A stretch of 64,000 nucleotides of DNA from Nakazawaea peltata. Its lineage: Eukaryota; Ascomycota; Pichiomycetes; Alaninales; Pachysolenaceae. The stretch is taken from positions 1,863,135-1,927,134 of the forward strand of contig BCGQ01000001.1 in assembly GCA_001599355.1 (NCBI GenBank). The letters are read 5' to 3'. The translations under genes were made by a program, and so were the position numbers. Numbering within the stretch: position 1 is the first letter of the stretch; each line of letters opens with the position of its first letter. A model generated the notes under the pieces. That model was not told the DNA's origin. It saw only the letters and a list, made by a program, of their open reading frames with translations, and searched no databases. Positions 4,303 to 54,735 of the stretch are shown here, piece after piece.

Positions 4303-5613
4303 ATGAAATCGCATCAAATTATTCGTGGATTTAGTTCCATTTCTTACAAATTAGCCGCAGACAAATCCAGATTTGTTCCTTCTTCTGGAACTTATCCAAA
4401 GGGATTCAAAGTTGGAGGTTTCAAGTCGGGCGTTAAAAAAAATGGTAACTTTGATTTAGCCGTTTTGGTATCTGAGCTTAAGGATACATCTGCAGCCGCA
4501 GTTTTCACTCAAAACAAGTTCAAAGCTGCTCCAGTTCAAGTCTCTGCTAAGATCCTCGAGGATAAACTGGGAAAAGATATCAACTCCTTGGTAGTTAACA
4601 GTGGATGTGCTAATGCTGTTACTGGTGAGGAAGGATTGAAAGATGCTAATAAGATGGTCGATGTTATGGACGAGTTAGTCAACAATACCAATGGTCAATC
4701 TACTTTGGTCATGTCTACTGGTGTTATCGGACAAAAATTACAGATGGATAAAATCATTCCATCTTTAAGTCCATTGGTACTGGAGAATTTGGGTGATGAT
4801 CATGAACATTGGTTGAACTGTGCCAAGCTGCTTTGTACTACCGATACTTTCCCAAAATTGGTCTCTAAATCATTTGAAATTAATGGTATTGAATACAGAT
4901 TAGCTGGTTTGGCCAAAGGTGCTGGTATGATCTGTCCTAACATGGCTACTTTATTGGGATTCTTTGTCACCGATGCTCCAGTTGAACCAAGTGCTTTACA
5001 AAAAATTTTATCTCATGCTACCGACAGATCTTTCAATTGTATCTCCGTCGATGGTGACATGTCTACTAACGACACCATCACTGCTTTGGCTAACGGTGCT
5101 GCTGGAGGTGAGCTTATCACCGAGTCATCTGCTTCTTATGAGCAATTAAAGGAAAATATTGTCTCCTTTGCGCAACAACTTTCCCAATTGGTCGTTAGAG
5201 ATGGTGAAGGTGCCACTAAGTTTGTAACTATTAAGGTAAAGGATGCTGTTAGTTACGAAGATGCTCATAAAGTTGGTAAAGCCATTGCTAATTCTCCTTT
5301 AGTTAAGACTGCTTTATACGGTAAGGATGCCAACTGGGGTAGAATTTTATGTGCCACTGGTTATTCTGGAGCTGAAGTCGACCCATTCAAGACCAATGTC
5401 TCTTTCATGCCAACCGATGGTTCTGCCGAATTGAAATTATTAGTCAACGGTGAACCAGAAAACGTTGATGAAGAAAGAGCCAGTGAAATTTTACAAGCTG
5501 AAGATTTAGAGATTGTTGTTGAATTAGGAACCGGTGGAGGTGCTTCCTGTGATGTCTGGACTTGTGACCTTAGTCATGAATATGTCAGTATCAATGGTGA
5601 CTACAGATCTTGA
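4303..5613 (+). CDS. ARG7: Mitochondrial ornithine/glutamate N-acetyltransferase (ArgJ family)
   Basis: This bifunctional enzyme moves the acetyl group from N-acetylornithine to glutamate in the acetylated arginine-biosynthesis cycle in mitochondria. The start is the first in-frame ATG (4303, [16 protein letters not shown]), giving 436 aa, close to the 441 aa of yeast Arg7. The frame is open further upstream only without an ATG. The N-terminus is basic and Ser-rich, as expected for import. The autocleavage site lies in '[16 protein letters not shown]' with the nucleophile Thr at about residue 216, which would give alpha and beta chains. '[12 protein letters not shown]', '[16 protein letters not shown]' and the terminal '[10 protein letters not shown]' are family hallmarks. 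CTG at codon 176 (4828) falls where homologs have Ser or Ala. Confidence 0.93.
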
Positions 5614-5948
5614 ATCGTCCCCTAATAGTTTTATAGATAATAAAAAGTAGTGCAAAATATCCCAAAATCCAGAACGGCTGGATTTGAAGTTTCTTAAAAG
5701 AGTAAAAGCGAGCAAAGTACGAAAAACATCAACAAAGAAAATGGTCAAAATAAAGCTTAAAAAAGGAGGAACGATGGTAACACTAAGGGAGTGGAAGGAT
5801 AGATTGAGTCAACGGATTAGGGAATAGATTGAATATTTCGCGTTTTATCACATAGAGAACCCCAGAAAGTACATAATTACCATCCATCAGGCCAACATCA
5901 ACCAGACTGAACTACCTCTCGTTATACTCCTTTATTTAATTAAGCGCC
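5614..5948. other. ARG7-SNF5 spacer
   Basis: The 335-bp spacer holds the ARG7 3' end and the SNF5 promoter. A TTAAGCGC element (5940-5947) abuts the SNF5 start codon; the same octamer occurs near three other starts in the window. No gene is seen here. Confidence 0.5.
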
Positions 5949-8006
5949 ATGAACCAATTTGGTAATCAACAACCTCAAATCAACCAACAGCAGCAAATGT
6001 CGTTGCAAATAATCCAGCAGCAGTTGGCTAATATGACACCGGAGCAACAGCAGGCGTTATTACGTCAGCATCCTCAGCTTGCTGCCTTCCTTCACCATTA
6101 TAGACAACAGCGCTTACAACAACAACAGCAACAACAACAGAATCCGCAACAAAATCAGGAACAGAAGCCAGCACTGCAACAGAATATTCAACAGAGTCCT
6201 CTTATGAACCAACAAGTACCCATTTCCATGGTCAATAACAACATGATGCCTAATAGGATGCCTATGAACATGCAACAAATGCCTTTACAACAACAACAAC
6301 AGATGGCGGCAGCAGCTGCTGCTGCTCTGCAAAAGCCAAGGAAGAAGAGAATGACAAAGAAGGAGAAAGCTGCTCAAGCTCAGGTTCAGATTCCTATGCA
6401 AGCTCAAGGTCAGGTTCCAATGCAAGCACCTGCTATGGGACCTCAATCTCAGGTGGTGCCTCAAGGTCAAGTTCCTCCTCAAATGCAGTCTCTGATGAAC
6501 ACTCCTGTGGTTCCAATGCCTCCTGTTGCCATGACACCACATCAACAGCCTATGGCTCAGCCTCCTGTAGCTCCACCGGTGGAGAGTATGTTGCCTTTGA
6601 ATAAGATTGATCCAACTTCACACTGGTCGACTAAATTGAAGAGTGAAGGAGCTACTCAACTTCCAGCCGATGTATTATTATATGAACAGATAACTAAGAG
6701 AGATATTAATGATGGACAGAAGGTAGCAAAGGGAGAAGACCGTTCACAACAAGCTCAATTGACTCATAAATTGGGACAAGAGCTTAAATTTTATGAACAA
6801 TTGAGGAACATTAGATCACAATCGATCGACCCAAAGATCCCTCAAGTACGTAATATATGGGGTGAAGGATATCAAGGTTATGGAAATGGGTTCACTGACC
6901 TGGCAGGTCCAACTCAGTTGGTTTATCCTAATAATAAGAAGAGATACTCGCGTATTCCTGATCAATATATTCCTCCTTCTGTGATGGAGTCCTCAGCTGA
7001 AGCTCCTCAACAATTAGTCCCAATCAGGTTGGAATTTGACTTGGAAAAGGATAAATTCAAGTTAAGTGACACTTTCCTTTGGGATACCAACGATAAATCT
7101 GTCACATTGGAAAGACTTGTAAGTGTTCTTATGGAAGATTACAAAGTTAGAAATCCTCTTTACACCAATACTGTTTTACAAGTGATCAAGGAACAGATCA
7201 GTGATTATATTCCAATTATTCAGAATGTGAGTACCAAGACTGGTCCTCTTCAAGACATTAGAATCCCTATAAAATTAGATATCACCATTGGAAATAACCA
7301 ATTAATTGACCAGTTTGAATGGGACTTGACTAATCCAGATAATAATCCCGAGGAATTCGCTATGGTAACAGCAGCTGAATTATCATTGTCCACCGAGTTT
7401 GTATCACTGATCTCTCTGTCGATCAGAGAACAATGCCAAATGTTCACAAAAGCATTGTATACTGCTGGATATCAATTCGATGGTACAGCTGTCGAAGAAG
7501 AAGAGATCAGAAGATTCTTACGTCCAAATATTTATAATGCAGATGTTAAGAGGATGAAGAATTCTTTATCGACTCATACACCTTCAGTATTAGAAATTGG
7601 ACAGAATGAGTTTGAAAGATTGGATAAAGATAAGGAAAGAGAAAGTAGAAGAAAGAGGAGAACTCAAGGAAGAACATCTAATAGAAGAGGAGGACCTACG
7701 TTCCCTGATTTATCTGATTATCCAAAGACGATCAGAACGGCAATTCCTCATTCTGTATTACCTGGTGGATTGGATATCAACCAAAACACATTCTTATTCC
7801 AAGAAAATGTGGAGAAAGTGATTGTTCCTGATGATCAATTCATTAAGTACCTGCAACAGACTCAACAGCTGCAATTGATGCAACAACAGAGACAACTGCA
7901 ATTACAGCAACAAGCATCTTTCAAGAGAGATGATCGTAGAAATGGGAATGTATTTTATGAGAATTTGGGAGATCAGTTTAATATTACGATTAGGTTGAGG
8001 AAATGA
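5949..8006 (+). CDS. SNF5: SWI/SNF chromatin-remodelling subunit Snf5
   Basis: Snf5 is a core SWI/SNF subunit that helps couple the remodeller to the nucleosome and to activators. The 685-aa product has a Gln/Met/Pro-rich N-terminal half (about 1-200). The SNF5 homology region follows (about 340-560) with two repeats starting at 'LVPIRLEFDLEKDKF' and 'IRIPIKLDITIGNNQLIDQFEWD'. The basic 'ERLDKDKERESRRKRRTQGR' block and 'PGGLDI' also match yeast Snf5. The shorter paralog Sfh1 lacks the long Gln-rich arm. The tail is Gln-rich. CTG codon 487 (7407) lies in 'EFVS-x-ISLSIREQ', where Snf5 has Ala. The ATG at 5949 is the first in frame. Confidence 0.9.
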   Translation: MNQFGNQQPQINQQQQMSLQIIQQQLANMTPEQQQALLRQHPQLAAFLHHYRQQRLQQQQQQQQNPQQNQEQKPALQQNIQQSPLMNQQVPISMVNNNMMPNRMPMNMQQMPLQQQQQMAAAAAAALQKPRKKRMTKKEKAAQAQVQIPMQAQGQVPMQAPAMGPQSQVVPQGQVPPQMQSLMNTPVVPMPPVAMTPHQQPMAQPPVAPPVESMLPLNKIDPTSHWSTKLKSEGATQLPADVLLYEQITKRDINDGQKVAKGEDRSQQAQLTHKLGQELKFYEQLRNIRSQSIDPKIPQVRNIWGEGYQGYGNGFTDLAGPTQLVYPNNKKRYSRIPDQYIPPSVMESSAEAPQQLVPIRLEFDLEKDKFKLSDTFLWDTNDKSVTLERLVSVLMEDYKVRNPLYTNTVLQVIKEQISDYIPIIQNVSTKTGPLQDIRIPIKLDITIGNNQLIDQFEWDLTNPDNNPEEFAMVTAAELSLSTEFVSLISLSIREQCQMFTKALYTAGYQFDGTAVEEEEIRRFLRPNIYNADVKRMKNSLSTHTPSVLEIGQNEFERLDKDKERESRRKRRTQGRTSNRRGGPTFPDLSDYPKTIRTAIPHSVLPGGLDINQNTFLFQENVEKVIVPDDQFIKYLQQTQQLQLMQQQRQLQLQQQASFKRDDRRNGNVFYENLGDQFNITIRLRK

Positions 8007-8468: not shown

Positions 8469-9718
8469 ATGAGATCGTATAATAGAGTAAGTATTAACGA
8501 GAAAGAATCGGATTTGACGGGTTTTGACCGCGTCCTTAATGGACCGAACCGTGTTTGGACCCTTGTTAATAATCAAGATTTATTAGGGAATAGACGAGAG
8601 TACTAACGATGAGATAGTTACCTGGTGATGAGAATCAAGGACAAGGTCATGAATTACAAGATTTGCATCCTAGTGATCATCAAGGTTCTGTAGAGGAGAG
8701 AGAGGATTTACTTCGGGGTTATGAAAATGGGGAAGAGAGCCTGGCAGAAGGTTCGGGAGAGATTTTGGGAGAAAGTAGAGGGGAAAATGAGAGTCAAGTT
8801 CATGGGGTTTCAGCATCTGAGTCAGCATCAGCTTCTACGTCATCTGCACCAGCTTCAACATCTACTCCCCACCCATCTATCCCATCTAATCCTAACTCTA
8901 ACTCCAGAAGAGCCAGAGTCCCAAATACCATCATTCATCGTATATTAAATGACGCTAGAATATCAAAATATGTCCCTCGTTTAGTACATGACTATTATCA
9001 ACCAAGATATAATGGCCGTCCAATGGGTCAAGGCTTAAATAATGATGGTGTGTTTACTAATATGGCCGCCAAACCTTCGACTCATGACGAAGTCAGCGAG
9101 AATTTACCTTCCTATGAACAACTGGCTATGGATCTGACCCCACCTTATTGGGAATCGTCTGTTATATCTCCAGGTTTCGAAGACGAAGTCTTTGTCGATG
9201 GCTTGCCTGTAGGTTCGATTTTGATCTTCATATGGAATTTTGTGGTGAGTTTCAGTTTCCAATTCATTGGATTTTTCTTGACTTATTTGTTACATACTTC
9301 ACATGGTTCAAAAGAGGGTTCCAGAGCTGGTCTTGGGTTGACTTTTATGAATTATGGTTATGGATTATTGCCGGTCAATTATTATAGCAGAAGTGATTCT
9401 CCTATATATAAATTTGAACCCGATGATCCTAATTCTATAGACGTTGTCGAATCACAAGATTTGGCCGGTGAAATATATGGTGATGATACCACTTCGGACT
9501 CGAAAGTGGCTACAACGAAGGATGATCTGGCCACCGAAGATAATGCAAATACACCAGTACTTTCATTCGCTTTGATAGCTCTTGGCTTGTTCATTATATT
9601 GAAAGCAGTTATTGATTATCATAGGGCCAGACAAATGGAAAGAATGATTTTGAATCCTAATTATGGGACAACAACAGCTCCTGAACAGGTCACCAGAACG
9701 GAACCTGAAGAGGTTTGA
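8469..9718 (+). CDS. BSD2: Bsd2/Ndfip-family Rsp5 adaptor membrane protein
   Basis: Bsd2 is a Golgi/endosomal membrane adaptor that recruits the ubiquitin ligase Rsp5 to transporters such as Smf1. Exon 1 (8469-8486) encodes MRSYNR. The 131-bp intron (8487-8617; GTAAGT, TACTAAC, TAG) joins exon 2 (8618-9718) in frame, for 372 aa. The N-terminal arm is acidic and Ser-rich. The family core starts at 'LPSYEQLAMD' and 'PPYWESSVISPGFEDEVFVD', followed by three hydrophobic segments (about 210-240, 255-275, 325-345). The Rsp5-binding motif would be the LPSY sequence; no classical PPxY is seen. CTG codon 179 (9134) falls where the family reads D-A-[TA]-PPYWE, so Ala fits. Confidence 0.85.
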
Positions 9719-10733: not shown

Positions 10734-10867
10734 GTTTTAACCTCTTATCTTTAGACGTTTGGTTATCTCCATCTATCTTAGTTAGTGATACTGAAAAATT
10801 TTTAGTTTTGGTGTAGTGATGTGCATCCGGTACCGGTCCTGAACCGGAGCGAAAAATGAAGCGAGAT

Positions 10868-11045
10868 GAGGGGGGGGGAAGAAGAGGGAAGGGGGAACAG
10901 GGAGAAGAGAGAAGAGAGAAGGAGAAGGGAGAAGAGAGAAGAGAGAAGGAGAAGGGAGAAGAGAGAGGGGAGGAGACAGAAGACAGAAGACAGAAGAAAG
11001 AAGACAGAGAATAAAAAGATTGGGAAGAATCAGAAGAAGGGAGAA
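10868..11045. repeat. Polypurine/polypyrimidine tract with a 27-bp direct repeat
   Basis: About 180 bp of nearly pure G/A on the + strand lies between CTP1 and TFA1. It includes two adjacent, identical 27-bp copies (10901-10927 and 10928-10954) made of GGAGAAGAGAGAA-type words, and later GAAGACA repeats. It lies upstream of CTP1 and could adopt H-DNA or exclude nucleosomes. A frame running through it looks protein-like only because of the repeat. Confidence 0.85.
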
Positions 11046-11105
11046 CAGCGTTACTACAGTATCAATAACATAAATACACCTCATTTTATTCACCTCTCTA
11101 TATAT

Positions 11106-12431
11106 CTACTCCTCATCACTCTCACCATCAAATTCTTCAACTATATCATCAACTACCGGCTGCACAGAAGCGATGTTATCTACTTTAATTTCCTTCAGTG
11201 TATCCTTACCAGAATCAAGATCAACATCTACATCTTCGAATTCTGCATCATCATCATCAAACTCATCATCTTCTTCCTCATCATCATCTTGTTCTTGTTG
11301 TTTCTCCAAATTAGCATAATAAGCAGCCAATGCATCTTCGGCTTCCTTTTCATCAATATTGAAGCCAGGATTGGAGAATGGAGTCGAATCTCTTGACGCA
11401 GCTGCAGAGTTACCCATGGTCATAGGTGTACTTTCAGTCTCAGTCATAGATTCTTTAACATCAACAGTAGCAGAGTCCAGATCTTCTCCTTCTACATCAT
11501 CAACACCTTCCTTTGCAAGACCCAAACCTGAATCATTATCATCATCATCCAAACGACCAAGGTCCATATTACCAACGGTACTTCCCGAGTGCCACGATGG
11601 TAAGGCATTTTGTACCAGTTTCTCATGCTTACGTTTCAAAGACAGTCTCTGTTCGTTCAACTCGTCTTCCTCGTTCGAAATCTTAACATTCAATATAGCA
11701 TTTGAAGAGTTGTTGTTGTAGTTCTTTTGTTGACGAGGCATATTGGCATGGAAATTGTTGGCTGTATTTTTCACAGTTCTGTTGGTCAGCGTATAAGAAG
11801 CGTTTGTCTCTGATTGAGCTGGAATAGCTCTCGTCAAAGAACTCTCGAATGTATTCTCTTCCACGGTCATCTTGTCGATCTTCTTCAAAGAATCAATAAT
11901 TGGGTTAATTTGTGACATAAGTCTGTGTAATTTATTCTCTCTAAGCTTCAATTGAACTCCAGAATCGTCTTCAATTAACTCATCACCACAACGATCACAT
12001 ACAAATTTGGATCTGTCTGCACTTAACATCGATAATGCATCTATTTGAGTGAATCTTGAATGACAAGTCCTACATACAAACCCTTCAGGGTTGGATTCCT
12101 TCTGAATCTCATCTTTCATGTCCTTAACTATGGTGTGCATTTTCCATTTGATGGAATCGATCAGCTCTGTGAAATGGATATAATAATACACTTTGGTTCT
12201 ATACCGCTGTTGGGTACCTTCCTCTTCTCGTTGAGCATGGATCACCAATAATCGATCTTCCACCAATTTATTGCAAATAGCACGGAGCTCTTTCCTTTGG
12301 ATACCAACAAGATATGCTAAATCATCTTCGGATAAGACCGAGTGGGTTAAGATGGCATCTAAGACCAAGATGTAAGGTTTTGGATAGAAGTTTCTTGCGA
12401 CGAATTGGATCAATGATCTTACTTCGCTCAT
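11106..12431 (-). CDS. TFA1: TFIIE large subunit (Tfa1)
   Basis: Tfa1 recruits TFIIH to the RNA polymerase II preinitiation complex. The 441-aa product begins with the winged-helix TFIIE-alpha domain (about 8-100, 'DDLAYLVGIQRKELRAICNK'). A zinc ribbon follows with Cys at 120, 123, 145 and 148. The C-terminal half has acidic stretches typical of the subunit. Length and order match yeast Tfa1. The start is the ATG at 12431. The gene is divergent from VPS28. Confidence 0.92.
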   Translation of the reverse strand: MSEVRSLIQFVARNFYPKPYILVLDAILTHSVLSEDDLAYLVGIQRKELRAICNKLVEDRLLVIHAQREEEGTQQRYRTKVYYYIHFTELIDSIKWKMHTIVKDMKDEIQKESNPEGFVCRTCHSRFTQIDALSMLSADRSKFVCDRCGDELIEDDSGVQLKLRENKLHRLMSQINPIIDSLKKIDKMTVEENTFESSLTRAIPAQSETNASYTLTNRTVKNTANNFHANMPRQQKNYNNNSSNAILNVKISNEEDELNEQRLSLKRKHEKLVQNALPSWHSGSTVGNMDLGRLDDDDNDSGLGLAKEGVDDVEGEDLDSATVDVKESMTETESTPMTMGNSAAASRDSTPFSNPGFNIDEKEAEDALAAYYANLEKQQEQDDDEEEDDEFDDDDAEFEDVDVDLDSGKDTLKEIKVDNIASVQPVVDDIVEEFDGESDEE

Positions 12432-12855: not shown

Positions 12856-13605
12856 ATGTCTCAACCATACGCTCCCGTCACTTCATCATCAATCAATCAT
12901 ATGATTGATTCCACCCTGTTACTCCAAGAAACAACTCTCATAGAATCAAATAAAGATAAGGATCTTTATGAATCTTTAGGAGAGATTTACTCCATCATCA
13001 CATCACTCAATTATCTTGAAAAATCATATTTACGCGATCTCATACATGAACCAGGAAGAGACGAACTTTATACATCGACATGTCTACGCTTATTAAGTCA
13101 ATACAATTCATTATTAAAAAACAGTTCAGTTAAGCAAGAGTTCAAAAATTTAGATCATTTCTATAAACAGTATGGGATTGATTACCAGTTTGCGAAATCT
13201 CGATTAGAGATTGGGATTCCTGCCACGATGGAAAATTCAACTCCTAATAATGAATCAGGTGTCAATGGTGTAATAGAAACAGGGACAAGGACACCGATTG
13301 CTAGTGGATCCAGTGTCAATACGAAATTGGTGGCAGAACTGACGGGAAATTTCATAACTTTACTGGATCTGATAAAGTTGAATTACAGAACCAAGGAACA
13401 ATTACATCCACTTTTATCTGAATTAGTGACCAACACCAATAAAGTGTTATCAAATCGTGATTTTTCAGGTCGTGGCAAGTTGATTCAATGGCTCATTAGA
13501 TTAAATCTGCTTGAATTTGACCAACAACTTGGGGAAGACGAACTGAAAGAGTTCCTTTTCGACTCAGAAACTGCATATAAAGGATTCTACAGTTGTCTCG
13601 ACTGA
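12856..13605 (+). CDS. VPS28: ESCRT-I subunit Vps28
   Basis: Vps28 is an ESCRT-I component that sorts ubiquitinated membrane cargo into multivesicular bodies. The start is the ATG at 12856 (MSQPYAPVT), giving 249 aa; yeast Vps28 has 242. The N-terminal helical domain (about 25-120) contains 'DLYESLGEIYSIITSLNYLEKSYL'-like sequence. The C-terminal four-helix domain, which binds ESCRT-II, contains 'TKEQLHPLLSELV' and 'GKLIQWLIRLN'. Two CTG codons read well as Ala against homologs: codon 172 (13369, MDA-KL position) and the one in 'EDE-x-KEFLFD'. The end of this gene is 6 bp from that of the convergent small gene. Confidence 0.92.
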   Translation: MSQPYAPVTSSSINHMIDSTLLLQETTLIESNKDKDLYESLGEIYSIITSLNYLEKSYLRDLIHEPGRDELYTSTCLRLLSQYNSLLKNSSVKQEFKNLDHFYKQYGIDYQFAKSRLEIGIPATMENSTPNNESGVNGVIETGTRTPIASGSSVNTKLVAELTGNFITLLDLIKLNYRTKEQLHPLLSELVTNTNKVLSNRDFSGRGKLIQWLIRLNLLEFDQQLGEDELKEFLFDSETAYKGFYSCLD

Positions 13606-13611
13606 TCCCCC

Positions 13612-38572: not shown

Positions 38573-39730
38573 ATGAATATAGAGAACTACTTCAGCATCC
38601 AGGTGTTTTTCATCATTCTCCGAGAGGTCTTGGAGTCAGCTATCATTGTCTCTGTTCTTCTAAGTTTCTTGAGACAGAGTTTCACAAGTACCGATGCTCA
38701 TGGCGTGGTGACGATCAACATCCCAGAACTGAAGTACCGCGGTTTACAGAAACAAATCTGGTTTGGGTCAGCTCTTGGGTTAATCATTTGCTTTGTTATT
38801 GGAGTTTGTTTTGTGTCGATTTTCTACTTGATCGGAAATGATTTGTGGTCTGTGACCGAGAGATTATGGGAGGGAATCTTCAGTGTTTGTAGTAGTCTGA
38901 TGATCAGCGCTATGGGGTTGTCGTTGTTAAAAGTACATAATATGACTAAGAAATGGAAGTTCAAGTTATCGACACTCTTGAAACTGAAGCCTGTCACCAA
39001 AAGATCGTCATTTTTCTCCAAATTTGCAGACAAATATGCCTTGCTGCTCTTACCATTTGTAACTACATTGAGAGAAGGATTAGAGGCCGTCGTGTTTATA
39101 GGAGGTATTGGAGCCAGTGCTCCGTTGACCTCTATTCCTCTCTCTTTATTCCTGGGAGCTTTCTTGGGCTCTCTTATCGGCATCAGTTTGTACAAGAGTG
39201 GTAATAAGCTCTCATTACATTACTTTTTAATCCTGTCCACTTGCTTTTTGTATCTTATTGCAGCTGGATTGATGTCCCGTGGTGTTTGGTTCTTGGAATT
39301 GGAACAATATGTTCGTAAATGTGGCATTGATCCAAGTGAGACTGGTTCAGGTCCAGGATCTTATGATATTGCTAAATCTGTATGGCATGTTAACTGTTGC
39401 AATGGTTTGAAAGACAGTTATTGGATGTTGTTAAATGCTATTTTCGGTTGGACCAACTCGGCCACTTACGGTTCAGTATTGAGTTATAATTTGTACTGGA
39501 TCATATTGGTGCTTTTCTTGAACATGAAAATCTATGAAGAACATCATGGATACTTACCTTATGTTCCTCTCAAGATGCAGTTAAAAAGAATAAAGAAAAG
39601 AGTTCTGATTTACGACTCCATCAATGATAATAAGATATTACTTACAAATACTAGAACAGGTGATACTACACCGCAAGAAGAAGGAGAAGAAGAAGTTGAT
39701 CTGTTGTTAAACACCCGCAACCACAGATAA
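38573..39730 (+). CDS. FTR1: High-affinity iron permease (Ftr1 family)
   Basis: 385 aa with about seven hydrophobic segments. The iron-permeation motifs are both present: REVLE (17-21) and REGLE (167-171). The loop motif 'NDLWSVTERLWEGIF' also fits DLWxxxExxxEG. Ftr1 takes Fe3+ produced by a Fet3-type multicopper oxidase across the plasma membrane; the vacuolar paralog is Fth1. Length (yeast Ftr1 404, Fth1 465) and the short charged tail favour Ftr1. No ferroxidase gene is adjacent. Control by an iron-responsive GATA factor is possible from a near-consensus site upstream. Confidence 0.88.
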   Translation: MNIENYFSIQVFFIILREVLESAIIVSVLLSFLRQSFTSTDAHGVVTINIPELKYRGLQKQIWFGSALGLIICFVIGVCFVSIFYLIGNDLWSVTERLWEGIFSVCSSLMISAMGLSLLKVHNMTKKWKFKLSTLLKLKPVTKRSSFFSKFADKYALLLLPFVTTLREGLEAVVFIGGIGASAPLTSIPLSLFLGAFLGSLIGISLYKSGNKLSLHYFLILSTCFLYLIAAGLMSRGVWFLELEQYVRKCGIDPSETGSGPGSYDIAKSVWHVNCCNGLKDSYWMLLNAIFGWTNSATYGSVLSYNLYWIILVLFLNMKIYEEHHGYLPYVPLKMQLKRIKKRVLIYDSINDNKILLTNTRTGDTTPQEEGEEEVDLLLNTRNHR

Positions 39731-40683: not shown

Positions 40684-41811
40684 TTAATCTTCGTAATAAA
40701 TCAATTGCTTGGCCTTAGAAGAATCCTCAAGAGCTTTCATATATTGCTCAAGGAACTCCTCATCACTAGTAGTAGAAACACTAATATCTTTATGAGAGAC
40801 ATCGAAATCCTTGATAACACCTTCAGCCATCATAGACGAAATAGTATCGGTGATCTTCTTCTTACCTTCGAGATCTCTTTCAGAGATTGCGGTGATCCAA
40901 AATCCGTACAGTTTAATATCCTTGAAAATGAGCAAAGATGTTGGAAGTTGAACAGGTCTCATGGACATACCACCGTAAGTAACAATGGCTCCTCCCAGAG
41001 ACAATTTTCTAGCAATTCCTGTAGATGAAGATCCACCAACCAGATTCAAAGCTAAAGGTACTTTACTTCCTTTAGTCCACTCTTTGAAAGTAGCGGTGAA
41101 TTCTTTGGATTCATTCTCTTTGTCGGTAATCACTTTGGTGGCTCCCATATCGTACAATTCTTGTTTCAATTCTTCGAGATCTGGTCTCTCTCTGACAACG
41201 TTGATAGTATTAATTCCCAAATGTTTAGCGATCTGAATGACATATTTTCCAACACTTGAGTTACCAGCATTTTGAATGACCCAATCTCCAGGTTTAACGT
41301 CCAGGAATTGAGTAAGCATAAGGTATGCAGTTCCCGGATTAACAGAGATTGTAGCAGCTTGATTTTTCGAGATGGTCTGAGGAACCTTAATGAATTTATC
41401 AGAAGTTCCAACGGCATGAGATCTCCAAGTTCCGAAATTGACACGCTTTGGAATACACCAATCTCCAATCTCAAAATCAGTGACTTCAGGTCCCTTTTGA
41501 ATCACCTTGAATAAACCTTCATTACCCAGACAAGCGCTTGGTTCAGATGTCTTCAATTCTTCGGTGGTAAGTGGAGGCTTACTTGGGTAAACACCTTGAA
41601 TTTGATTCAAATCAGAAGGATTGATAGGATGAGCAACAGCTTGTACAATTACTTCATCACCCTTGGCATCTTCAATCTCATACTTATGCAATTTCAAAGC
41701 CTTCTTGACGTCGTGGTCGTATTGTGAATAAATAATAGCTCTGGATGTAACCATTGATCTGACAAATTGGTGGTTCAATTGGATCTTTCTTCCAAAGGAT
41801 GTTCTAAGCAT
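40684..41811 (-). CDS. ETR1: Mitochondrial 2-enoyl-thioester reductase
   Basis: Etr1 is the NADPH-dependent trans-2-enoyl-ACP reductase of mitochondrial fatty-acid synthesis (MDR superfamily), needed for lipoic acid and respiration. The start is the ATG at 41811 (MLRTSFGRKI), giving 375 aa; longer in-frame sequence upstream lies within the promoter. The basic N-terminus ('MLRTSFGRKIQLNHQFVRSM') suits mitochondrial import. Family blocks are 'HPINPSDLNQIQG', 'NEGLFKVIQ', 'NPGTAYLMLTQF', 'QNAGNSSVGKYVIQIAK' (cofactor site) and 'LNLVGGSSS'. A TATATAAA box (41861-41869, minus sense) sits 50 bp upstream. Confidence 0.92.
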   Translation of the reverse strand: MLRTSFGRKIQLNHQFVRSMVTSRAIIYSQYDHDVKKALKLHKYEIEDAKGDEVIVQAVAHPINPSDLNQIQGVYPSKPPLTTEELKTSEPSACLGNEGLFKVIQKGPEVTDFEIGDWCIPKRVNFGTWRSHAVGTSDKFIKVPQTISKNQAATISVNPGTAYLMLTQFLDVKPGDWVIQNAGNSSVGKYVIQIAKHLGINTINVVRERPDLEELKQELYDMGATKVITDKENESKEFTATFKEWTKGSKVPLALNLVGGSSSTGIARKLSLGGAIVTYGGMSMRPVQLPTSLLIFKDIKLYGFWITAISERDLEGKKKITDTISSMMAEGVIKDFDVSHKDISVSTTSDEEFLEQYMKALEDSSKAKQLIYYED

Positions 41812-46027: not shown

Positions 46028-48637
46028 ATGTCACTCTCAGCAACAGCGTCGCAAATGAACTCGGAGGTATTCAATAATCCTGCTCGTCCGCTGCCTCGCC
46101 CTCCCGCCTCGTACAATCGTACGGGCAGCGTGGACTCGAATGGGTCGGAAGCCTCCTTTTCCACCGACAATAATCACAATAACAATTATACCTACCGCGA
46201 CAACCATACTAATGTGATCAATTTGAACAAGCCAGATGCCGGTCCAGCTGGCGCCAATCAGAAAATGTATCGTGTCCTGAAGCGCCGTGAAGGTTACGTC
46301 TCTGTTAAAGATGATGGTATCATGTCTTTCAGGTGGCCAAAACGTTACATGGTTTTAAATGACGCTACTTTGGATTTTTATAAAAACGACTCCAAGGAAG
46401 AGCTCTCGTTGAGTATTCATTTGTTGAGCATTTCCAACTTGACTAAGAACCTGTTGAGACCATTTTGCTTCGAGATTATGCGCTCTCAGAATCAAAAATC
46501 CGTCTTTGTTCAAGTTAAAAATGGTAATGACTTGAATGGGTGGATCGATGCTATTTACAATAAGAGCGGCAAATCCGCCGTTCTGGTTTCAAAACCTACT
46601 AACTTTACACATGTTGGTCAAGTCGTATTTGACTATAATTCTGGAGCTTTTAAGATTCCTGATAGATGGTTGAAACGTTTGGAAAGATCTGATATCACCA
46701 TCGAGGATTATATTAGAGATCCAGGTGCTGTAGAGTCGGCTTTGAAATTCTTTAGTGGTGAATCCGATTTCGAAAATAGTGATACACCTTTATATCCGGA
46801 TTTATTAGCTAAATCGTCTGGAAGAAGTAGTGGAGATTCTTCTGTTGAATCACCTGCTAGTGCTGACAATAATTTACAGTCGAAATTCAGTGAATGGACC
46901 AAGACACCAAAATCGACCGGTTTACTACCTGGTTCTGTCTCTAGTACTACTAGCCCATTTGATAACAAGAAATATATCCCTGTAAGGAAAGCACCTCCAC
47001 TGCCCGTTCCATCAAGTTCACCACTGGATGCTCCAAAGATTCAACCTTTCAACCTGCCAGATTTGGTTCCAATGAGAAAGGCTCCTGCTCCTCCAAATGC
47101 TCCACTTAATGCATTGAAGACTCAGGCTCCAACCATCCCAATCCCTCATATTCCAAAGGGTGGTGATGACTCCAATTTATCGACACCTTCTAACCAAAAG
47201 GTTAAGACTTTCATGGATGAAGATACATCTGGTGAATTCGACGATACAGAAAATGTCAAGCCAGGATTACATCATACTTTGTCTACAAAGAGATTACAGA
47301 AGCAACTGCAAAAGCAAAAGCCAATCTATGAGACCGACTCTCCTTATATCAAGGTAAAGGCATTCACACAACAAAGTAGTAATAAGATTCATCCTAATTT
47401 GAAGTTGCAAACCACCAATTTGAATGGTGAATCTCAACAAACTTCTCCTGTTTATCATAAGCATCCTCCATTACCTTCGCATGCTGGAGACTATTCGTCA
47501 CCTACGAGTGTGTCTCCTCCAAATCTGACTCCTCAACGTGCCAATAAAACACCTCATCTGCATCCACAACAGCATCAATACGCCTCTCCAGGTTCTCACC
47601 AAAAACAGAAGCATCCTCAATCTCCTTCGAACATGCTGGCAGCTGCTGCTGCTCTGCTGGTGAACAAGAAGGACAAGCCGGTTAGACAAAAGAATGAAGA
47701 GAGACGTGTTTCAGCTATGACTGATGCTCAAGTGATGGCCAAATTGAGATCAGTAGTGATTAATGCTGACCCAACACCTAATTTCCAAATGTTGGAGAAG
47801 CTGGGTCAAGGTGCCTCTGGTAGTGTCTTCTTACTGAGATCCCTCAAGAGAGGTGGTCTGAAAGTGGCTGTCAAACAGATGGATATTAATGTTCAACCAA
47901 GAAAAGAGTTGATTGTCAATGAGATCTTAGTAATGAAGGATTCTCAACACCGTAATATCGTCAATTTCTTGGAGCTGTATTTGAGAGGAAACTCTGAATT
48001 GTGGGTTGTCATGGAATACATGGAAGGTGGATCATTGACCGATGTAATTGACCATAACAGTTCGTTAACTGAGCCCCAAATTGCTGCTATCTGTCTTGAA
48101 ACAATTAAAGGTTTGCAGCATTTGCATAGAAAACATATTATTCATCGTGATATCAAATCTGATAATGTGTTACTTGACTCTAATGGAGATGTCAAGATCA
48201 CCGATTTCGGTTTCTGTGCTAAATTGACTAACCAACGTAATAAGAGAGCTACTATGGTAGGTACTCCATATTGGATGGCCCCAGAAGTGGTGAAACAGAA
48301 AGAGTATGATGAGAAAATCGATGTTTGGTCTCTTGGTATCATGCTGATTGAGATGATCGAGGGAGATCCTCCATATATGAACGAGGAGCCTTTAAGACTG
48401 TTATACTTGATAGCTTCAAATGGTACTCCAAAATTGAAAAACTCGGAGAGACTTTCCAGCAATTTGAAGAAATTCTTGAGTATTTGTTTATGTGTCGATG
48501 TCAAGTATAGAGCTACTTGTGATGAATTGTTACAACATGTCTTCTTGAAGAGCGCATGTCCTACCTCCGAATTAGCTGGCTTATTGGAGTGGAAGAATGC
48601 TCCTTCTACCTCTGGTGGAATAGATGATACTATTTGA
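46028..48637 (+). CDS. CLA4: p21-activated kinase Cla4
   Basis: Cla4 is the Cdc42 effector kinase that controls septins, budding and mitotic exit. The 869-aa product has a PH domain (about 87-181), a CRIB Cdc42-binding motif ('SKPTNFTHVG', from 188), a proline-rich linker and a kinase domain (about 587-850). The catalytic Lys is 616, HRDIK is 706-710, and 'DFGFCAKL' and 'GTPYWMAPE' are intact. The PH plus CRIB order separates Cla4 from Ste20, which lacks the PH domain. Five CTG codons (592, 603, 650, 773, 791) fall where PAKs have Ala: EK-A-GQGASG, VYL-A, NFLE-A-YL, GIM-A-IEM and PLR-A-LYLI. Confidence 0.95.
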   Translation: MSLSATASQMNSEVFNNPARPLPRPPASYNRTGSVDSNGSEASFSTDNNHNNNYTYRDNHTNVINLNKPDAGPAGANQKMYRVLKRREGYVSVKDDGIMSFRWPKRYMVLNDATLDFYKNDSKEELSLSIHLLSISNLTKNLLRPFCFEIMRSQNQKSVFVQVKNGNDLNGWIDAIYNKSGKSAVLVSKPTNFTHVGQVVFDYNSGAFKIPDRWLKRLERSDITIEDYIRDPGAVESALKFFSGESDFENSDTPLYPDLLAKSSGRSSGDSSVESPASADNNLQSKFSEWTKTPKSTGLLPGSVSSTTSPFDNKKYIPVRKAPPLPVPSSSPLDAPKIQPFNLPDLVPMRKAPAPPNAPLNALKTQAPTIPIPHIPKGGDDSNLSTPSNQKVKTFMDEDTSGEFDDTENVKPGLHHTLSTKRLQKQLQKQKPIYETDSPYIKVKAFTQQSSNKIHPNLKLQTTNLNGESQQTSPVYHKHPPLPSHAGDYSSPTSVSPPNLTPQRANKTPHLHPQQHQYASPGSHQKQKHPQSPSNMLAAAAALLVNKKDKPVRQKNEERRVSAMTDAQVMAKLRSVVINADPTPNFQMLEKLGQGASGSVFLLRSLKRGGLKVAVKQMDINVQPRKELIVNEILVMKDSQHRNIVNFLELYLRGNSELWVVMEYMEGGSLTDVIDHNSSLTEPQIAAICLETIKGLQHLHRKHIIHRDIKSDNVLLDSNGDVKITDFGFCAKLTNQRNKRATMVGTPYWMAPEVVKQKEYDEKIDVWSLGIMLIEMIEGDPPYMNEEPLRLLYLIASNGTPKLKNSERLSSNLKKFLSICLCVDVKYRATCDELLQHVFLKSACPTSELAGLLEWKNAPSTSGGIDDTI

Positions 48638-48743: not shown

Positions 48744-49634
48744 TCAAGGCTTGAAAGCTTCAAGCTTTTGCATTGCATCAATGCTTGCCTCATAAACCCA
48801 AAGAGAAATGGCACTTGTTGGTCCACCTTTCAATAACAGAGGTAATAAACCCTTGAAAAGACCCTTTGGACCTTCAGATTTCAATATTTGTTTCAGAATT
48901 GATATCGAAGACCACTGTCTATGTTCCTCCAGTGTGGCTATTTGAAGTCTTTTTCGAAGTAAATCTAATGGGAAGCTGCCAACTTTTGAAACAAATCCAC
49001 TAATGAGACCTATGAAGGGATCAATGGTCCGGACTACCGAGTCTTGATCGGATTTTCGCACAAGAATTTTCAAAGTCTCAAATGTCTGGAACATAAGTCC
49101 CATTTGTAAAGCCACAGATAACATGGATGGTTGAAGACCTTTGTAAAAACCTGTAAGACCAGAGTCTTTGTAAATGGATATCACCACAGACGACAACTTC
49201 TGAAACTGTTTCTCTTTATTAGACAGTAACTTTGTACGAAGAAGATCACATGGGTAACTAATTAAAGTGGAAGACATTCCTGAAAATGCCCCCACCACAA
49301 AACTATGCACAAACTGATTCAAAGGCATCAGGGAAAGAGTCGAATTGGCCACCGAATACGAAGCAAATTGTGTAGATCCATACACTATATACATGAATGA
49401 CAGTGGTACAGTCCCCTTCCAAAACAGTCTGATCCCCTCATTTCTAAAAATAGACATCCCCACTTGTAAAACTCCTCCTTGACCCGGCCCACTCAACTGG
49501 CATCGGATCTTCAAAGTATCTAACGGAGCAATCAGCAATCGAGCAGTCAATCCAGAAACTGATCCGGCCAATGCAGCCATCACAGGTGACACGTATACAC
49601 CTTGCTGCAAGTGATCAGGCCCATCGTTTCTCAT
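48744..49634 (-). CDS. TPC1: Mitochondrial thiamine pyrophosphate carrier
   Basis: Tpc1 imports thiamine pyrophosphate into mitochondria (SLC25 family). The 296-aa product has three carrier repeats with 'PLDTLKIRCQ', 'PCDLLRTKLL' and 'PLDLLRKRLQ'. 'GTVPLSFMYIVYGSTQFASY' and 'GGPTSAISLWVYE' are particular to Tpc1-type carriers. Start ATG at 49634. CLA4 lies convergently, 106 bp away. A CTG codon in 'GLLP-x-LLKGG' is at a Ser/Ala position of the family. Confidence 0.85.
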   Translation of the reverse strand: MRNDGPDHLQQGVYVSPVMAALAGSVSGLTARLLIAPLDTLKIRCQLSGPGQGGVLQVGMSIFRNEGIRLFWKGTVPLSFMYIVYGSTQFASYSVANSTLSLMPLNQFVHSFVVGAFSGMSSTLISYPCDLLRTKLLSNKEKQFQKLSSVVISIYKDSGLTGFYKGLQPSMLSVALQMGLMFQTFETLKILVRKSDQDSVVRTIDPFIGLISGFVSKVGSFPLDLLRKRLQIATLEEHRQWSSISILKQILKSEGPKGLFKGLLPLLLKGGPTSAISLWVYEASIDAMQKLEAFKP

Positions 49635-49825: not shown

Positions 49826-51307
49826 CTAGGATTTCTTGAGTTTTTTAAGAATCCTGGCCTGTAAATCATCGATCGTACGTTTTCTAGAATTAATAGAAGC
49901 GTCGTTAAACCAACTACTACCGTTGGTAATAGCCTTATTCTGAGACTGAGCATTCGGATTTTTCAGCCCCGGATTATCAAATGAGAATACATCTTCGTTA
50001 TTAGAATTGAGAGAAGAAGATATCAGACCCAACCTTTGAGACATATTTTTACTGACTTTAACTTTTGGTCCCGAGTCACCTGAAGCAATCGAACGAATAT
50101 TTCCATTACTTGATCTCCCTGCCATTCCTAATCCGATCTCGTTACCAAACAGATCCATATAAGACTCTTCTCTTTCTCCAAAGGAGACTTTATTTTGTAA
50201 TTTTTGCAATTCGCTGGCCTCGAAATTCTTCTTCATCTTACTGAAACGTTTTCCTCCTCTTTTCTTGGATTTTTGATCCACTGGGATCGGTAACAGTTTT
50301 ACCTTCAGTCTATCTGGGGGCAGTATCAACTTGTCCAACTTCTCGGTGACCTCTGTACGATATTTCAAACCTAAGCTGCCTTCTTTCTCACTTTTAGACA
50401 AGTCTACTCTTGCACATAACGTTATCTTAGCACTCACCATTCTTATCAGTTGTTTTTTGTAGTCGTCGGGTACTTCTGCAATCAATGGACAATCGTATAA
50501 ATAGCCTTGAAATTTAACTCCTCCTGCCCTCACTCCACTTAATCCTATGGAGTCCTGTCTTCTGTTCCCCAACAGAGCAAGATTGCACGAGGGAGTTATA
50601 GCTAAAGTCTGAAGTGAGCCAACACTTGATATTAATTGCAGAGTTGTTGTCAGACCCACTAACAGACATGTATTGGGGGCATAAGAAGCTAAATTTGAGG
50701 CCACATTGGACATTATCTCCACTTTGAAGTCATCTAACTTGATTAATAAATCACACAGCTTCTTTATATGGCCAATATTTTCTGGTATCTTGTAGTTAGA
50801 TTGTTTCAATGAAGAACTCATAGTAATAACAAGAAGCTTCTCTGATGGTATGATCAGTCTCAACTCATCCTCTTTGGTAGCGACATTCCCGGCAACATCA
50901 GAACCTAAAAGCTTCACAGTACGAGCAAATTCTCCCAGTCTCGGTACCAAACTATCCAATTCAGGGAATATCGATTTATAATGTATCTTTATATAATTGT
51001 GGATGATGGCAGTTTCCAGGTCGATTTCTTGAATGATTTCATAAGCAGATTTGATGAATTCAGGTGGGAATGATCCAGTTTCGGCCACCTTGCGGACCTC
51101 ATCTACAAACTCTCCTGCCTTACCCTCCACTTTAGAGTAAACAGTTATATCATCGATCGTTGTAAGCTTTAAAGCGGCATCGTAAATACTTCCTATAGCC
51201 AGACTTCTCTCATCACCTACAGCATCTGAAACAGGTGTCTCGTCAATATCAGATCTATGCTCTTCCTCATCACTCGAGTAGTCCAATAATAGCTCTACCA
51301 ACCCCAT
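49826..51307 (-). CDS. PRP31: U4/U6-U5 tri-snRNP protein Prp31
   Basis: Prp31 binds the U4 15.5K-RNA complex and holds the tri-snRNP together for spliceosome activation. The 493-aa product has an acidic start, a NOSIC/coiled-coil region (about 60-180), and the Nop domain (about 205-330: 'SCNLALLGNRR', 'YDCPLIAEVPDDYKK', 'SAKITLCARVD'). The basic 'KKRGGKRFSKMKK' and 'VSFGEREE' tail matches human PRPF31. CTG codon 215 (50663-50665) lies in 'PNTC-x-LVG', where the family has Cys-Ala-Leu-Val-Gly. Start ATG at 51307. Confidence 0.93.
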   Translation of the reverse strand: MGLVELLLDYSSDEEEHRSDIDETPVSDAVGDERSLAIGSIYDAALKLTTIDDITVYSKVEGKAGEFVDEVRKVAETGSFPPEFIKSAYEIIQEIDLETAIIHNYIKIHYKSIFPELDSLVPRLGEFARTVKLLGSDVAGNVATKEDELRLIIPSEKLLVITMSSSLKQSNYKIPENIGHIKKLCDLLIKLDDFKVEIMSNVASNLASYAPNTCLLVGLTTTLQLISSVGSLQTLAITPSCNLALLGNRRQDSIGLSGVRAGGVKFQGYLYDCPLIAEVPDDYKKQLIRMVSAKITLCARVDLSKSEKEGSLGLKYRTEVTEKLDKLILPPDRLKVKLLPIPVDQKSKKRGGKRFSKMKKNFEASELQKLQNKVSFGEREESYMDLFGNEIGLGMAGRSSNGNIRSIASGDSGPKVKVSKNMSQRLGLISSSLNSNNEDVFSFDNPGLKNPNAQSQNKAITNGSSWFNDASINSRKRTIDDLQARILKKLKKS

Positions 51308-51409: not shown

Positions 51410-52042
51410 TCATCGAAGGTGGACGGTGAAGTATTCTAAAGGTATTTTGCCATCTTTACCCTCTGATAAGATCACATTATTGGCACTTTTCCAGAAGGGA
51501 TATCCGTCATTGAGCAGTTTCTCGATGTCCAAGAAAAGTAATACTTTAGACGACGCTCTCATCCCACTAATGACAGTTTCTTTGTCCTCTGGTAAACCTA
51601 TGGCGAAATGAATATGATTCCTGTTCATTTTACTCAAGTATCCTGATTGTTTGATCAATTCGTAGTTTTTAATTGATGTCCCATGTACTACGGTGTCTGT
51701 TGGGAACAGTTCTTTAGTTGGAAGTGGTACTAAATCTGAATCTATTTCGGTGATTGAATGTCCTTGGTTGGCACAGATATAGTATCGACCATCTTCTCTC
51801 TCCTGTAAAGTATAACGGTTCTTATTGTCGTTAGCCACTACTCTTCGTAAGTCTTCAAATGTTGATCTATGAGATTTCAAATATCTGTGTCGAAGTATCT
51901 CTGTAGTGGATACAAATCCTTTTTGATCGATATTCAATCCCTCTTGTTTCGCTTGGTGTCGGAGTAATTTGGAGAGCGCTTTGGATATATGAGTATCCCT
52001 CTTCTTGTCCGTTGCAGTGGTCTCTGGCACAGTATTCAGCAT
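51410..52042 (-). CDS. TPT1: tRNA 2'-phosphotransferase Tpt1
   Basis: Tpt1 removes the 2'-phosphate left at the splice junction of ligated tRNAs, using NAD+ as acceptor. The start is the ATG at 52042 (MLNTVPETTATDKK), giving 210 aa; the 13 codons upstream in frame have no ATG. Conserved blocks are 'ISKALSKLLRHQA', 'TLQEREDGRYYICANQGHS', 'VVHGTS' and 'RNHIHFAIGLP', which hold the catalytic RHxxR...H residues. Yeast Tpt1 is 230 aa. A 14-codon upstream ORF (52195-52151, minus) precedes it. Confidence 0.9.
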   Translation of the reverse strand: MLNTVPETTATDKKRDTHISKALSKLLRHQAKQEGLNIDQKGFVSTTEILRHRYLKSHRSTFEDLRRVVANDNKNRYTLQEREDGRYYICANQGHSITEIDSDLVPLPTKELFPTDTVVHGTSIKNYELIKQSGYLSKMNRNHIHFAIGLPEDKETVISGMRASSKVLLFLDIEKLLNDGYPFWKSANNVILSEGKDGKIPLEYFTVHLR

Positions 52043-52341
52043 ATCTATAGCCAATGTAGAGTCTATAAATTCCTCCGACAAATTCTACTGTCAAATATCG
52101 TTACTCTTCTCTTCGGATTCTGCTCTTCTCTAAAGGAATTTTCCTAATAGTCACAGCAAAGAGTGGGGAAGGTCGTTCGATGAGTCAGATCGCATAGTTG
52201 AGATTCCTTGGGGTCCTTTAAGGGGCTCGTTTCTTAAAATTTAAATTTTCTATTATATGAGATTTATTTACATAACTAATTGAAAAACCGCAGGTACAAA
52301 ACTTCCGGTACCTGTTTCATAAACACATTACCAATTGAGAT

Positions 52342-52772
52342 TTAAGCATTCTTTTGCTCTAAGACTCTTTGGCCTCCACCACAACAACCTCCAGAAGGAG
52401 CAGCTGGGGTACCCAAAGTGTTTCTTGGCTTCTTTACAGAATCATTGTCTCCTATTTCGGTCTTATCATGAATGTTCAAAAAGTACTTTCCATCTTCCTT
52501 CTTTCTTCCTTGTACAATATTGCTGGTTAAGAAGGCACTGACCTGATGCAATAAATCGATTCTTTCCTCGACACTTTTGTTCTCGTAATCTTTCAGAGCC
52601 ATTCCCTTCTTGAGTTGTTCTCTGGCGGCAACTAATGTTGGGACATCACCTGTATTTTATTAGTATCACTATTCGGAACTTCGACTTCTCAAGTACACTT
52701 ACCATTAAAGGCTAATCTAGCAGCTCTCAAAGCTGATCTATAAGCGGACAAAGATCTTTGGGCAGTAGACAT
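52342..52772 (-). CDS. MZM1: Mitochondrial zinc maintenance protein Mzm1 (LYRM7)
   Basis: Mzm1 is a matrix chaperone that stabilises the Rieske protein Rip1 before insertion into complex III. Exon 1 (52772-52703, 70 nt) encodes MSTAQRSLSAYRSALRAARL and beyond. The intron is 52702-52650 (GTAAGT, branch-like TACTAAT, CAG). Exon 2 is 52649-52342, joined in frame across a Gly codon. The 125-aa product (yeast 123) carries the LYR-type 'SAYRSALRAARLAF', 'GKYFLNIHDKTEIGDN' and a Cys/Gly-rich tail (GGCCGGG). A TTAAGCGC octamer lies 64 bp upstream. Confidence 0.9.
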
Positions 52773-53523
52773 GATGACAACGTTTCTGTTTTAGCTTCTG
52801 CTTTCACACTTCTACTCTAACACTACTTAACTCCTTTAAGCGCTCTGACCCTTTTTCTTACTAATTAGCAAAAAAATTTTATTTGTTTCTAGACGACTCT
52901 TCTTGTTTACTATTCGCTAATTTTTAACTCGCTGGGATTTAATTCGTAAAATGCTACTGACCTCCTATTAAAGGGGGTTGATGTAATTAATAATTAAAGA
53001 GAATGATATTTCAAGGGGATAATGACAGAATATTCAGGGATCTCATATTCAGATTACTGGAGTTCAAGGCACTAATGTACGAACACTCATATTGTCTTTT
53101 TATCGGAGATATCTGAGATCTCGGTTTAGCCGACAATCGGCTCTTTATACTAAATAGGTTATCTAACACCTTAGTCAATCGTCTGATTTATGTAGTCTAT
53201 ATCAGCTGACACTTATTTGTAGTATCCACAGATCACGAAATAATACTTAAGGTTAAATGATATAGAAAACTTAACCCCCCGCAATAAGTTTCGCTATTTT
53301 CTTATCACCCAACGACAAATGTCGATCTTATCACTCAATCTGAGCCACTGTTTTTTCCCTATACAAAAAGTGTGGATATGGGTAATTTTCTGCCCCTAAA
53401 TGTCATCCTGTGGCTTAAGCTTGAATGGAGAAAGAAATACATATTTAAGAGATATGTTTGGACCCTTTGGTAACCACAATTATGTAATCTATGTAAATCA
53501 GATAAATTCCAAAAATCCACAAA
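52773..53523. promoter_or_regulatory. MZM1/JLP1 divergent spacer with a Met31/32-like site
   Basis: 751 bp. CTGTGGC (53408-53414) matches the Met31/Met32 core, the sulfur-limitation activator sites, about 110 bp before the dioxygenase ATG. This fits sulfur-regulated expression, but the site is short and could be chance. No RNA gene is seen. Confidence 0.45.
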
Positions 53524-54735
53524 ATGGCTCCAGTTGCTCTGTTAGATGATTATCAAATTGAAAAAATCGTTCCTGCTAACGTTGACTTCCACGTTAGGGG
53601 AAAGAATTCCAGGATTGAAAAGGATGGTACTGTAGAGCTTAGCTTGCAAGAACAAGAAGCTTCCAAATACCCAGAATGGTTACCTACTTGGAATCCTAAT
53701 GAAAAATTTGAAAAATTGAAACCATTCAAATATGAGGATCCAGGCTTCAGAGGTGACAAAGATTACAAGAATTTGTTCCAAGGTGATATTGATCAATACC
53801 AACATCTGCACTTGTCTCCAAGATTAGGAACTGAAATTCGTGACTCTCGTATTCAACTTTCTAAGCTTACTAATGCTCAGAGAGATGATTTGCTGTTATT
53901 GGTAGAAAAGAGGGGTGTTGTTGTTTTGAGAAACCAAGACTTGAAAGAACAAGGTCCTGAGTTTGCCAAGAAGTTAGGTGAATATTTTGGCCCATTACAT
54001 GTCCACCCAACTTCTGGAGCTCCAGCTGGATACCCTCAATTCCATATCACTTACAGAAAATCCAATGAATCTGAACTGAAAAAGTTGTTGTCTTTGACTA
54101 ACACTACCATTGCTTGGCACTCTGATGTCACTTACGAATTACAACCACCTTCGATCACTTTCTTTGCCCAATTAGAAGGTCCTTCTACCGGTGGTGACAC
54201 TTTATTCGCTGATTGTATTGAGCTGTATGAAAGATTGTCTCCTCTCATGCAACAAATGCTTGATGGTTTAAGAGTTATCCACACTTCTAGAGACCAGGCT
54301 GCTGATTCTAAAAGCAAAGGTGGAGTAAACAGAAGTGAGGTTGTTGACTCTATTCATCCTTTAGTTAGATACCATCCTGTATTGAAGAAGAAGGGTTTGT
54401 TCATTCATAAGACCTTCTCTAGAAGAATTGTGGGATTGAAGAACGAAGAAAATGAAGCTTTGTTGAAATTCTTGATTTCTCACATTGAATCTTGTCAAGA
54501 TCTTCAAATTAGAGCCAGATATGAACCAGGTACTGTTGTTGTTTGGGATAACAGAAGAGTTTTACATAGTCTGTGTTTAGACTGGATTGAATCCACTACC
54601 AGACATTGTTTCAGAATCACTCCTCAAGGTGAAAGACCTGTCGGATCTCAAGAAGAATATGAGAACTGGACTGAAGAACAAGAGATTATTAATAGTGAGA
54701 GAGATCAAAAGATTATTAATCTGTATTACGGATGA
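53524..54735 (+). CDS. JLP1: Fe(II)/2-oxoglutarate sulfonate dioxygenase (Jlp1/TauD family)
   Basis: Jlp1 oxidises sulfonates such as taurine to release sulfite for sulfur assimilation. The 403-aa product (yeast 412) has a TauD jelly roll with metal ligands H199-x-D201 ('WHSDVTYELQPPS') and H348 ('RRVLHS'), and 'TRHCFRITPQGERPV' for 2-oxoglutarate binding. Three CTG codons match Ala in the family: 124 in 'DDL-x-LLVEKRGVVV', 234 in 'CIE-x-YERLSP', and 350 just after H348 (HSA). Other TauD-like yeast enzymes exist, so the substrate is a family inference. A Met31/32-like site upstream supports sulfur control. Confidence 0.85.
   Translation: MAPVALLDDYQIEKIVPANVDFHVRGKNSRIEKDGTVELSLQEQEASKYPEWLPTWNPNEKFEKLKPFKYEDPGFRGDKDYKNLFQGDIDQYQHLHLSPRLGTEIRDSRIQLSKLTNAQRDDLLLLVEKRGVVVLRNQDLKEQGPEFAKKLGEYFGPLHVHPTSGAPAGYPQFHITYRKSNESELKKLLSLTNTTIAWHSDVTYELQPPSITFFAQLEGPSTGGDTLFADCIELYERLSPLMQQMLDGLRVIHTSRDQAADSKSKGGVNRSEVVDSIHPLVRYHPVLKKKGLFIHKTFSRRIVGLKNEENEALLKFLISHIESCQDLQIRARYEPGTVVVWDNRRVLHSLCLDWIESTTRHCFRITPQGERPVGSQEEYENWTEEQEIINSERDQKIINLYYG

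Follow-up and report, generated by a model that had tools for sequence, protein, structure and literature searches.

Evidence that Nakazawaea peltata very probably reads CUG as alanine through an alanine-type tRNA with the anticodon CAG

Genes of the window and the residues that face their CTG codons

We examined the meaning of the codon CTG (CUG in mRNA) in a stretch of 64,000 nucleotides of the yeast Nakazawaea peltata, referred to below as the window (C1:1863135-1927134; GC content, 38.6%), within a genome assembly of 11,631,020 bases in 11 contigs. The window set comprises 26 open reading frames (ORFs) with 11,493 codons, among which are 187 CTG codons distributed over 25 of the 26 ORFs. 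A 27th ORF with a single CTG (10866-11396, + strand) was excluded as probably no gene; it is of low complexity and overlaps the TFIIE-alpha gene (11106-12431), which is encoded on the other strand.

Pfam backs the names ARG7, SNF5, BSD2, VPS28, and PRP31, the TauD-type dioxygenase, and the PH-PBD-kinase arrangement of a PAK/CLA4 protein, and PFS2 is backed by a match in the PDB. The ARG7/ArgJ-family gene (4303..5613, + strand; Pfam ArgJ, 475 bits, and PDB alignment) has three CTG codons, with the codon at 4828 in an alanine column. SNF5 (5949..8006, + strand; Pfam SNF5 and PDB alignment) has nine, and those that could be counted face Ala (7407), Thr (6900), and His (7416). Two CTG codons of VPS28 (12856..13605, + strand; Pfam VPS28 and alignment), at 13339 and 13369, face Ala, and three more face Met, Lys, and Ile. 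The five CTG codons of a mitochondrial enoyl reductase (ETR1-like) gene (40684..41811, − strand; identified by alignment) stand opposite Cys, Val, Cys, Asn, and Ser. In the CLA4-type PAK kinase gene (46028..48637, + strand; PH, PBD, and kinase domains by Pfam), 47834, 48344, and 48398 fall in alanine columns of PAK1, and 47801 falls opposite Ile. PRP31 (49826..51307, − strand; Pfam Nop) contains 16 CTG codons, 14 of which align to human Prp31 and five of which meet Ala there (50938, 50758, 50653, 50641, and 50449). The TauD/JLP1-type dioxygenase gene (53524..54735, + strand; Pfam TauD) has CTG at two alanine columns (54223 and 54571) and at one tyrosine (53893), and the WD-repeat gene PFS2 (55038..56465, + strand; aligned to yeast Pfs2) has CTG opposite Ala at 55239 and 56226 and opposite Ser at 55881 and 55917. 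CTG codons also occur in a BSD2-like gene (9023..9718, + strand; Pfam NEDD4_Bsd2; three, including 9134), an FTR1 iron permease gene (38573..39730, + strand; Pfam FTR1; eight), a mitochondrial carrier gene (48744..49634, − strand; Pfam Mito_carr; eight), and a TPT1/KptA RNA 2'-phosphotransferase gene (51410..52042, − strand; Pfam PTS_2-RNA; three).

To count residues at CTG columns, we aligned eight window proteins to their relatives of solved structure with each CTG masked as X, which left the alignment blind to the codon, and took the best match for each protein. For SNF5 the reference was the second-best match, S. cerevisiae Snf5 (the best match yields an equal number of alanines), and counting began at residue 312, past a glutamine-rich start; CLA4 was searched by its last 300 residues, and an ABC transporter was excluded because its alignments were distant and partial. 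The resulting 46 CTG columns held Ala 16 times, Ser 4 times, Lys, Gln, Ile, and Pro 3 times each, Asn, Val, and Cys twice each, and Leu, Glu, Asp, Trp, Tyr, Met, Thr, and His once each. Alanine is thus far in excess of its background frequency of 7.1% (binomial P = 6e-8). As controls from these alignments, Leu codons met Leu in 107 of 215 columns, compared with 1 of 46 for CTG (Fisher P = 7e-11), and Ala codons met Ala in 51 of 135. Since the alanine match of CTG (35%) is close to that of true Ala codons (38%), CTG behaves as an Ala codon in these columns. When yeast Prp31 was substituted for the human protein, the 46 columns gave Ala 15, Ser 8, and Leu 0.

A sequence-only reading of the window had proposed that CTG is read as alanine, on the strength of family residues at 15 named places. 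An in-frame CTG is present at all 15. That reading spoke of at least ten genes but named eight; in those eight the codons are where it placed them. Fourteen positions could be compared with relatives of solved structure, and alanine was found at nine (4828, 7407, 13369, 47834, 48344, 48398, 54223, 54571, and 55239). The relative carries Ser at 47975 and 55917. Three single assignments fail: the residue is Ile at 47801 in CLA4, Tyr at 53893 in the dioxygenase, and, at 50663-50665 in PRP31, Ile in the human and Phe in the yeast protein. The broader proposal is supported by the enrichment of alanine, which nearly equals that seen at true Ala codons, and the comparison with orthologous columns that it called for finds Leu as scarce at CTG as at Ala codons.

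Residue preferences in kinase paralogs and domain profiles

We also compared CTG sites among proteins of the same genome. The best 28 of 112 kinase matches, the window CLA4 included, were aligned with CTG masked, and 95 of their 101 CTG sites had 10 or more partners in the column. Summed over these 95 sites, the log-odds score was +39.8 for Ala, −44.8 for Thr, −45.4 for Ser, and −100.7 for Leu; Ala ranked top among the 20 residues, and did so in 1000 of 1000 bootstraps. In three domains CTG replaces the alanine preceding the conserved lysine, where every other residue of the column is Ala; in two domains it replaces the alanine of the APE motif. Five CTG sites fall in columns with at least 70% Ala and none in columns with at least 70% Leu. 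Applied to all codons under a leave-the-codon-out rule, the same method recovered the standard residue for 46 of 61. The other 15 comprise CTG, assigned to Ala, and 14 codons that went elsewhere, mostly to similar residues; the removal of partners bearing the same codon accounts for part of this.

The same picture comes from a less strict comparison, all against all, over 184 ORFs (fetched loci and the window). This comparison, which draws largely on the same kinase data and may include some ORFs that are not genes, gave match rates of 0.169 to Ala and 0.069 to Leu at 108 CTG sites. In this set Ala codons met Ala at 0.246 and Leu at 0.066, and Leu codons met Leu at 0.413.

Finally, we scored 6 of the 26 window proteins against Pfam with CTG translated in turn as Leu, Ala, and Ser. 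The bit scores, in that order, were 179.1, 192.4, and 186.8 for Nop; 94.0, 98.7, and 97.3 for Prp31_C; 193.4, 202.3, and 195.5 for TauD; 203.4, 208.3, and 205.1 for VPS28; 188.6, 196.5, and 196.4 for Mito_carr; 218.0, 219.8, and 214.1 for FTR1; and 216.2, 218.8, and 217.3 for Tpt1 (PTS_2-RNA). The Ala reading scored highest in all seven domains, with a margin over Ser of just 0.1 bit in the carrier, and the sums were 1292.7 bits for Leu, 1312.5 for Ser, and 1336.8 for Ala.

A tRNA with the anticodon CAG

No tRNA genes were found in the window. A genome-wide pattern combining a CAG anticodon arm with a T arm downstream led to a tRNA gene at C4:81426-81498, 73 bases long, with a short variable loop and a score of 50.9 bits against the Rfam tRNA model; a run of ten T's begins 8 bases past it. 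ARAGORN labels this gene Leu, from the anticodon. Its acceptor stem is of the alanine type: G1-C72, G2-C71, G3-U70, C4-G69, U5-A68, a U6-U67 mismatch, and A7-U66, followed by A73. The gene also has A35 and G37. We compared 16 type I tRNAs of the genome, a set without Val, Glu, His, Ile, Lys, Phe, Pro, Trp, and Tyr; within it, both G3-U70 and the U6-U67 mismatch recur in tRNA-Ala(AGC) and tRNA-Ala(UGC), and both are absent from the other 13. The nearest relative is tRNA-Ala(AGC), identical at 49 of 73 positions overall and at 25 of 32 in the acceptor and T arms, and a BLAST search with the CAG tRNA returned no match besides itself. G3-U70 is listed as the identity element of eukaryotic tRNA-Ala in one article (PMC9976931). 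The sequence-only reading had asked for such a gene, and the one found is of the alanine type it anticipated.

The D arm has a different affinity. The motif GTGTAG-N-GGTTATCAC occurs without mismatch only in the CAG tRNA, in three tRNA-Gln(UUG) genes, and in one tRNA-Gln(CUG) gene; the CAG tRNA and tRNA-Gln differ at one loop base of this arm, and the acceptor and T arms resemble those of tRNA-Ala. It is conceivable, though doubtful, that the gene is a mosaic, in which tRNA-Ala supplied the acceptor stem, the T arm, and the variable loop and tRNA-Gln the D arm; if it were, the capture of CUG would have involved recombination between tRNA genes, beyond point changes in an anticodon. A derivation from tRNA-Val(CAC), suggested by a resemblance, is unsupported among the tRNAs compared, which included no tRNA-Val of this genome: the D arm is that of tRNA-Gln and the acceptor that of tRNA-Ala.

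We then looked for CAG tRNAs of other types. A pattern for the D arm of Leu- and Ser-type tRNAs, run over the genome, found 16 genes, none with the anticodon CAG; the Leu-type genes had AAG, UAG (with a 120-base intron), CAA, and UAA, and the Ser-type genes had AGA, CGA, UGA, and GCU. Three looser patterns yielded 46, 67, and 20 hits against 60, 71, and 23 in controls, that is, no excess, and 31 of the 46 hits of the first were read in context (30 loci and C6:401508). An Rfam search, in which 63 of 608 candidates were scored, missed even the known CAG tRNA and therefore provides no evidence of absence. From these patterns, tRNA-Leu(CAG) and tRNA-Ser(CAG) are likely absent from the genome.

Two of the genes seen in these searches have introns that merit description. 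The long intron of tRNA-Leu(UAG), 120 bases by ARAGORN, lies in the gene at C4:804350-804750 (locus positions 169-376). At C7:154352 (locus positions 1494-1599), ARAGORN called a Val(CAC) tRNA with an intron, one of the 16 genes with the Leu/Ser-type D arm, and the body of this gene matches tRNA-Leu(CAA); ARAGORN probably split the intron wrongly, and we read the gene as Leu(CAA).

The reading of CUG and its relation to known codes

Taken together, the residue preferences and the tRNA make it very probable that the nuclear code of N. peltata reads CUG as Ala through the alanine-type CAG tRNA. This code is NCBI translation table 26. In the mechanism we propose, CUG would be read by the tRNA at C4:81426-81498, which most likely derived from a tRNA-Ala by a change of anticodon. 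It would still be charged with alanine, because alanyl-tRNA synthetase recognizes G3:U70 and disregards the anticodon. The ancestral leucine tRNA that read CUG, which was not found in the searches made, was presumably lost.

Several observations weigh against this interpretation. None of the five CTG columns of ETR1 has Ala in the best relative, and of 11 CTG columns aligned by eye in the ABC transporter, Leu occupies two and Ala one. The D arm of the CAG tRNA is unlike that of the genome's tRNA-Ala genes. The tRNA searches were also not exhaustive and would miss any further CAG tRNA whose arms are unusual.

The residue data bear on three other readings as well. Under the standard code CUG would be Leu, and the alanine columns would reflect chance or bias in the family residues assigned; those of the sequence-only reading were given without database searches, and 3 of its 14 comparable positions are neither Ala nor Ser. 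Leu, however, occupies a single one of the 46 CTG columns, as opposed to 107 of the 215 columns at Leu codons, and the CAG tRNA found is of the alanine type; we regard this reading as practically untenable. If CUG were instead serine, as it is in the Candida clade or in Saccharomycopsis and Ascoidea, one could point to Ser as the second residue at the PDB columns (4 of 46, rising to 8 when yeast Prp31 is used) and to its summed Pfam score, which lies between those of Ala and Leu and falls only 0.1 bit below Ala in the carrier. Ser nevertheless trails Ala by 85 log units in the kinases and by 24.3 bits over the seven Pfam domains, and no Ser-type CAG tRNA is among the 16 Leu- and Ser-type genes, which makes a serine reading highly improbable. 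The columns are dominated by neither Leu nor Ser, and the CAG tRNA found is of neither type; none of the outcomes that the sequence-only reading had named as contrary to it was seen.

A mixed reading, mainly Ala with some Leu, might arise through A73, A35, and G37 of the CAG tRNA or through misreading of CUG by tRNA-Leu(UAG). A73 and m1G37 are described as important for leucylation of S. cerevisiae tRNA-Leu in PMC9976931, and the CAG tRNA gene has A73 and G37. For Pachysolen, 10% Leu was once claimed, according to PMC8645108, which terms that claim mistaken and reports more than 99% Ala. In N. peltata, CTG and Ala codons meet Leu at similar rates in the kinases (0.078 and 0.071), the 184 ORFs (0.069 and 0.066), and the PDB columns (1/46 and 7/135). 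Judged from these counts, there is no residual Leu signal at CTG sites, a low level of Leu being below what column counts would detect, and we consider mixed decoding unlikely.

In the NCBI taxonomy, Nakazawaea is included in the family Pachysolenaceae of the order Alaninales. The kind of code change is already known: Krassowski and others 2018 (PMC5951914) dates it to 2016, describes an Ala clade of Pachysolen, Nakazawaea, and Peterozyma, and presents its tRNA as formed from tRNA-Ala with an altered anticodon. The N. peltata genome shares with that clade the apparent reading of CUG as Ala and an alanine-type CAG tRNA; the patterns searched turned up no Leu-type CAG tRNA, and we saw no difference in kind. 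It resembles the CUG-Ser1 code of the Candida clade in the codon reassigned, in a novel CAG tRNA, and in a G37 beside the anticodon, which the same source reports in nearly all CUG-Ser1 species analyzed (PMC5951914). It differs from CUG-Ser1 in the amino acid, here Ala, and in its tRNA, which has G3:U70 and whose variable loop is short. The CUG-Ser2 code of Ascoidea and Saccharomycopsis likewise reassigns this codon; here the residue is Ala, and no accompanying Leu-type CAG tRNA was found in the searches made.

In its use of the codon, N. peltata departs in degree from the general rule for clades with a changed code, in which CUG is described as relatively rare and tending to poorly conserved sites (PMC5951914). 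Over the 184 ORFs, CTG occurs 19.4 times per 1000 codons and makes up about 28% of Ala codons, second after GCT (24.3 per 1000), and it is also used at columns where Ala is conserved. Its share at Ala-conserved compared with other columns was 16/67 versus 30/114 in the PDB alignments (P = 0.86), which shows no clear avoidance, and 27/140 versus 68/263 in the kinases (P = 0.17), which is not clearly lower. Because CTG is a well-used Ala codon without clear avoidance at conserved Ala sites, the genome suits the study of how a reassigned codon is refilled. Nuclear changes from one sense codon meaning to another are rare, and this genome appears to be a clear case, in which translation by the standard code would miscall 1.6% of window codons (187 of 11,493). 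Little is left to find beyond two points: the CAG tRNA has a Gln-like D arm, and CTG is heavily used.

Some minor features of the sample may also be recorded. The leucine codon CTA is rare in the 184 ORFs, at 2.0 per 1000 codons. The only CTG-free ORF of the 26 is a ribosomal S19-family gene (61147-61647, − strand); highly expressed genes may shun CTG, on the example of this single gene, where chance is possible. At 23046-24662 (+ strand) the window encodes a protein rich in Ser and Thr; with TGTEATGTGA-like repeats and its hydrophobic end, it resembles a cell-wall protein.

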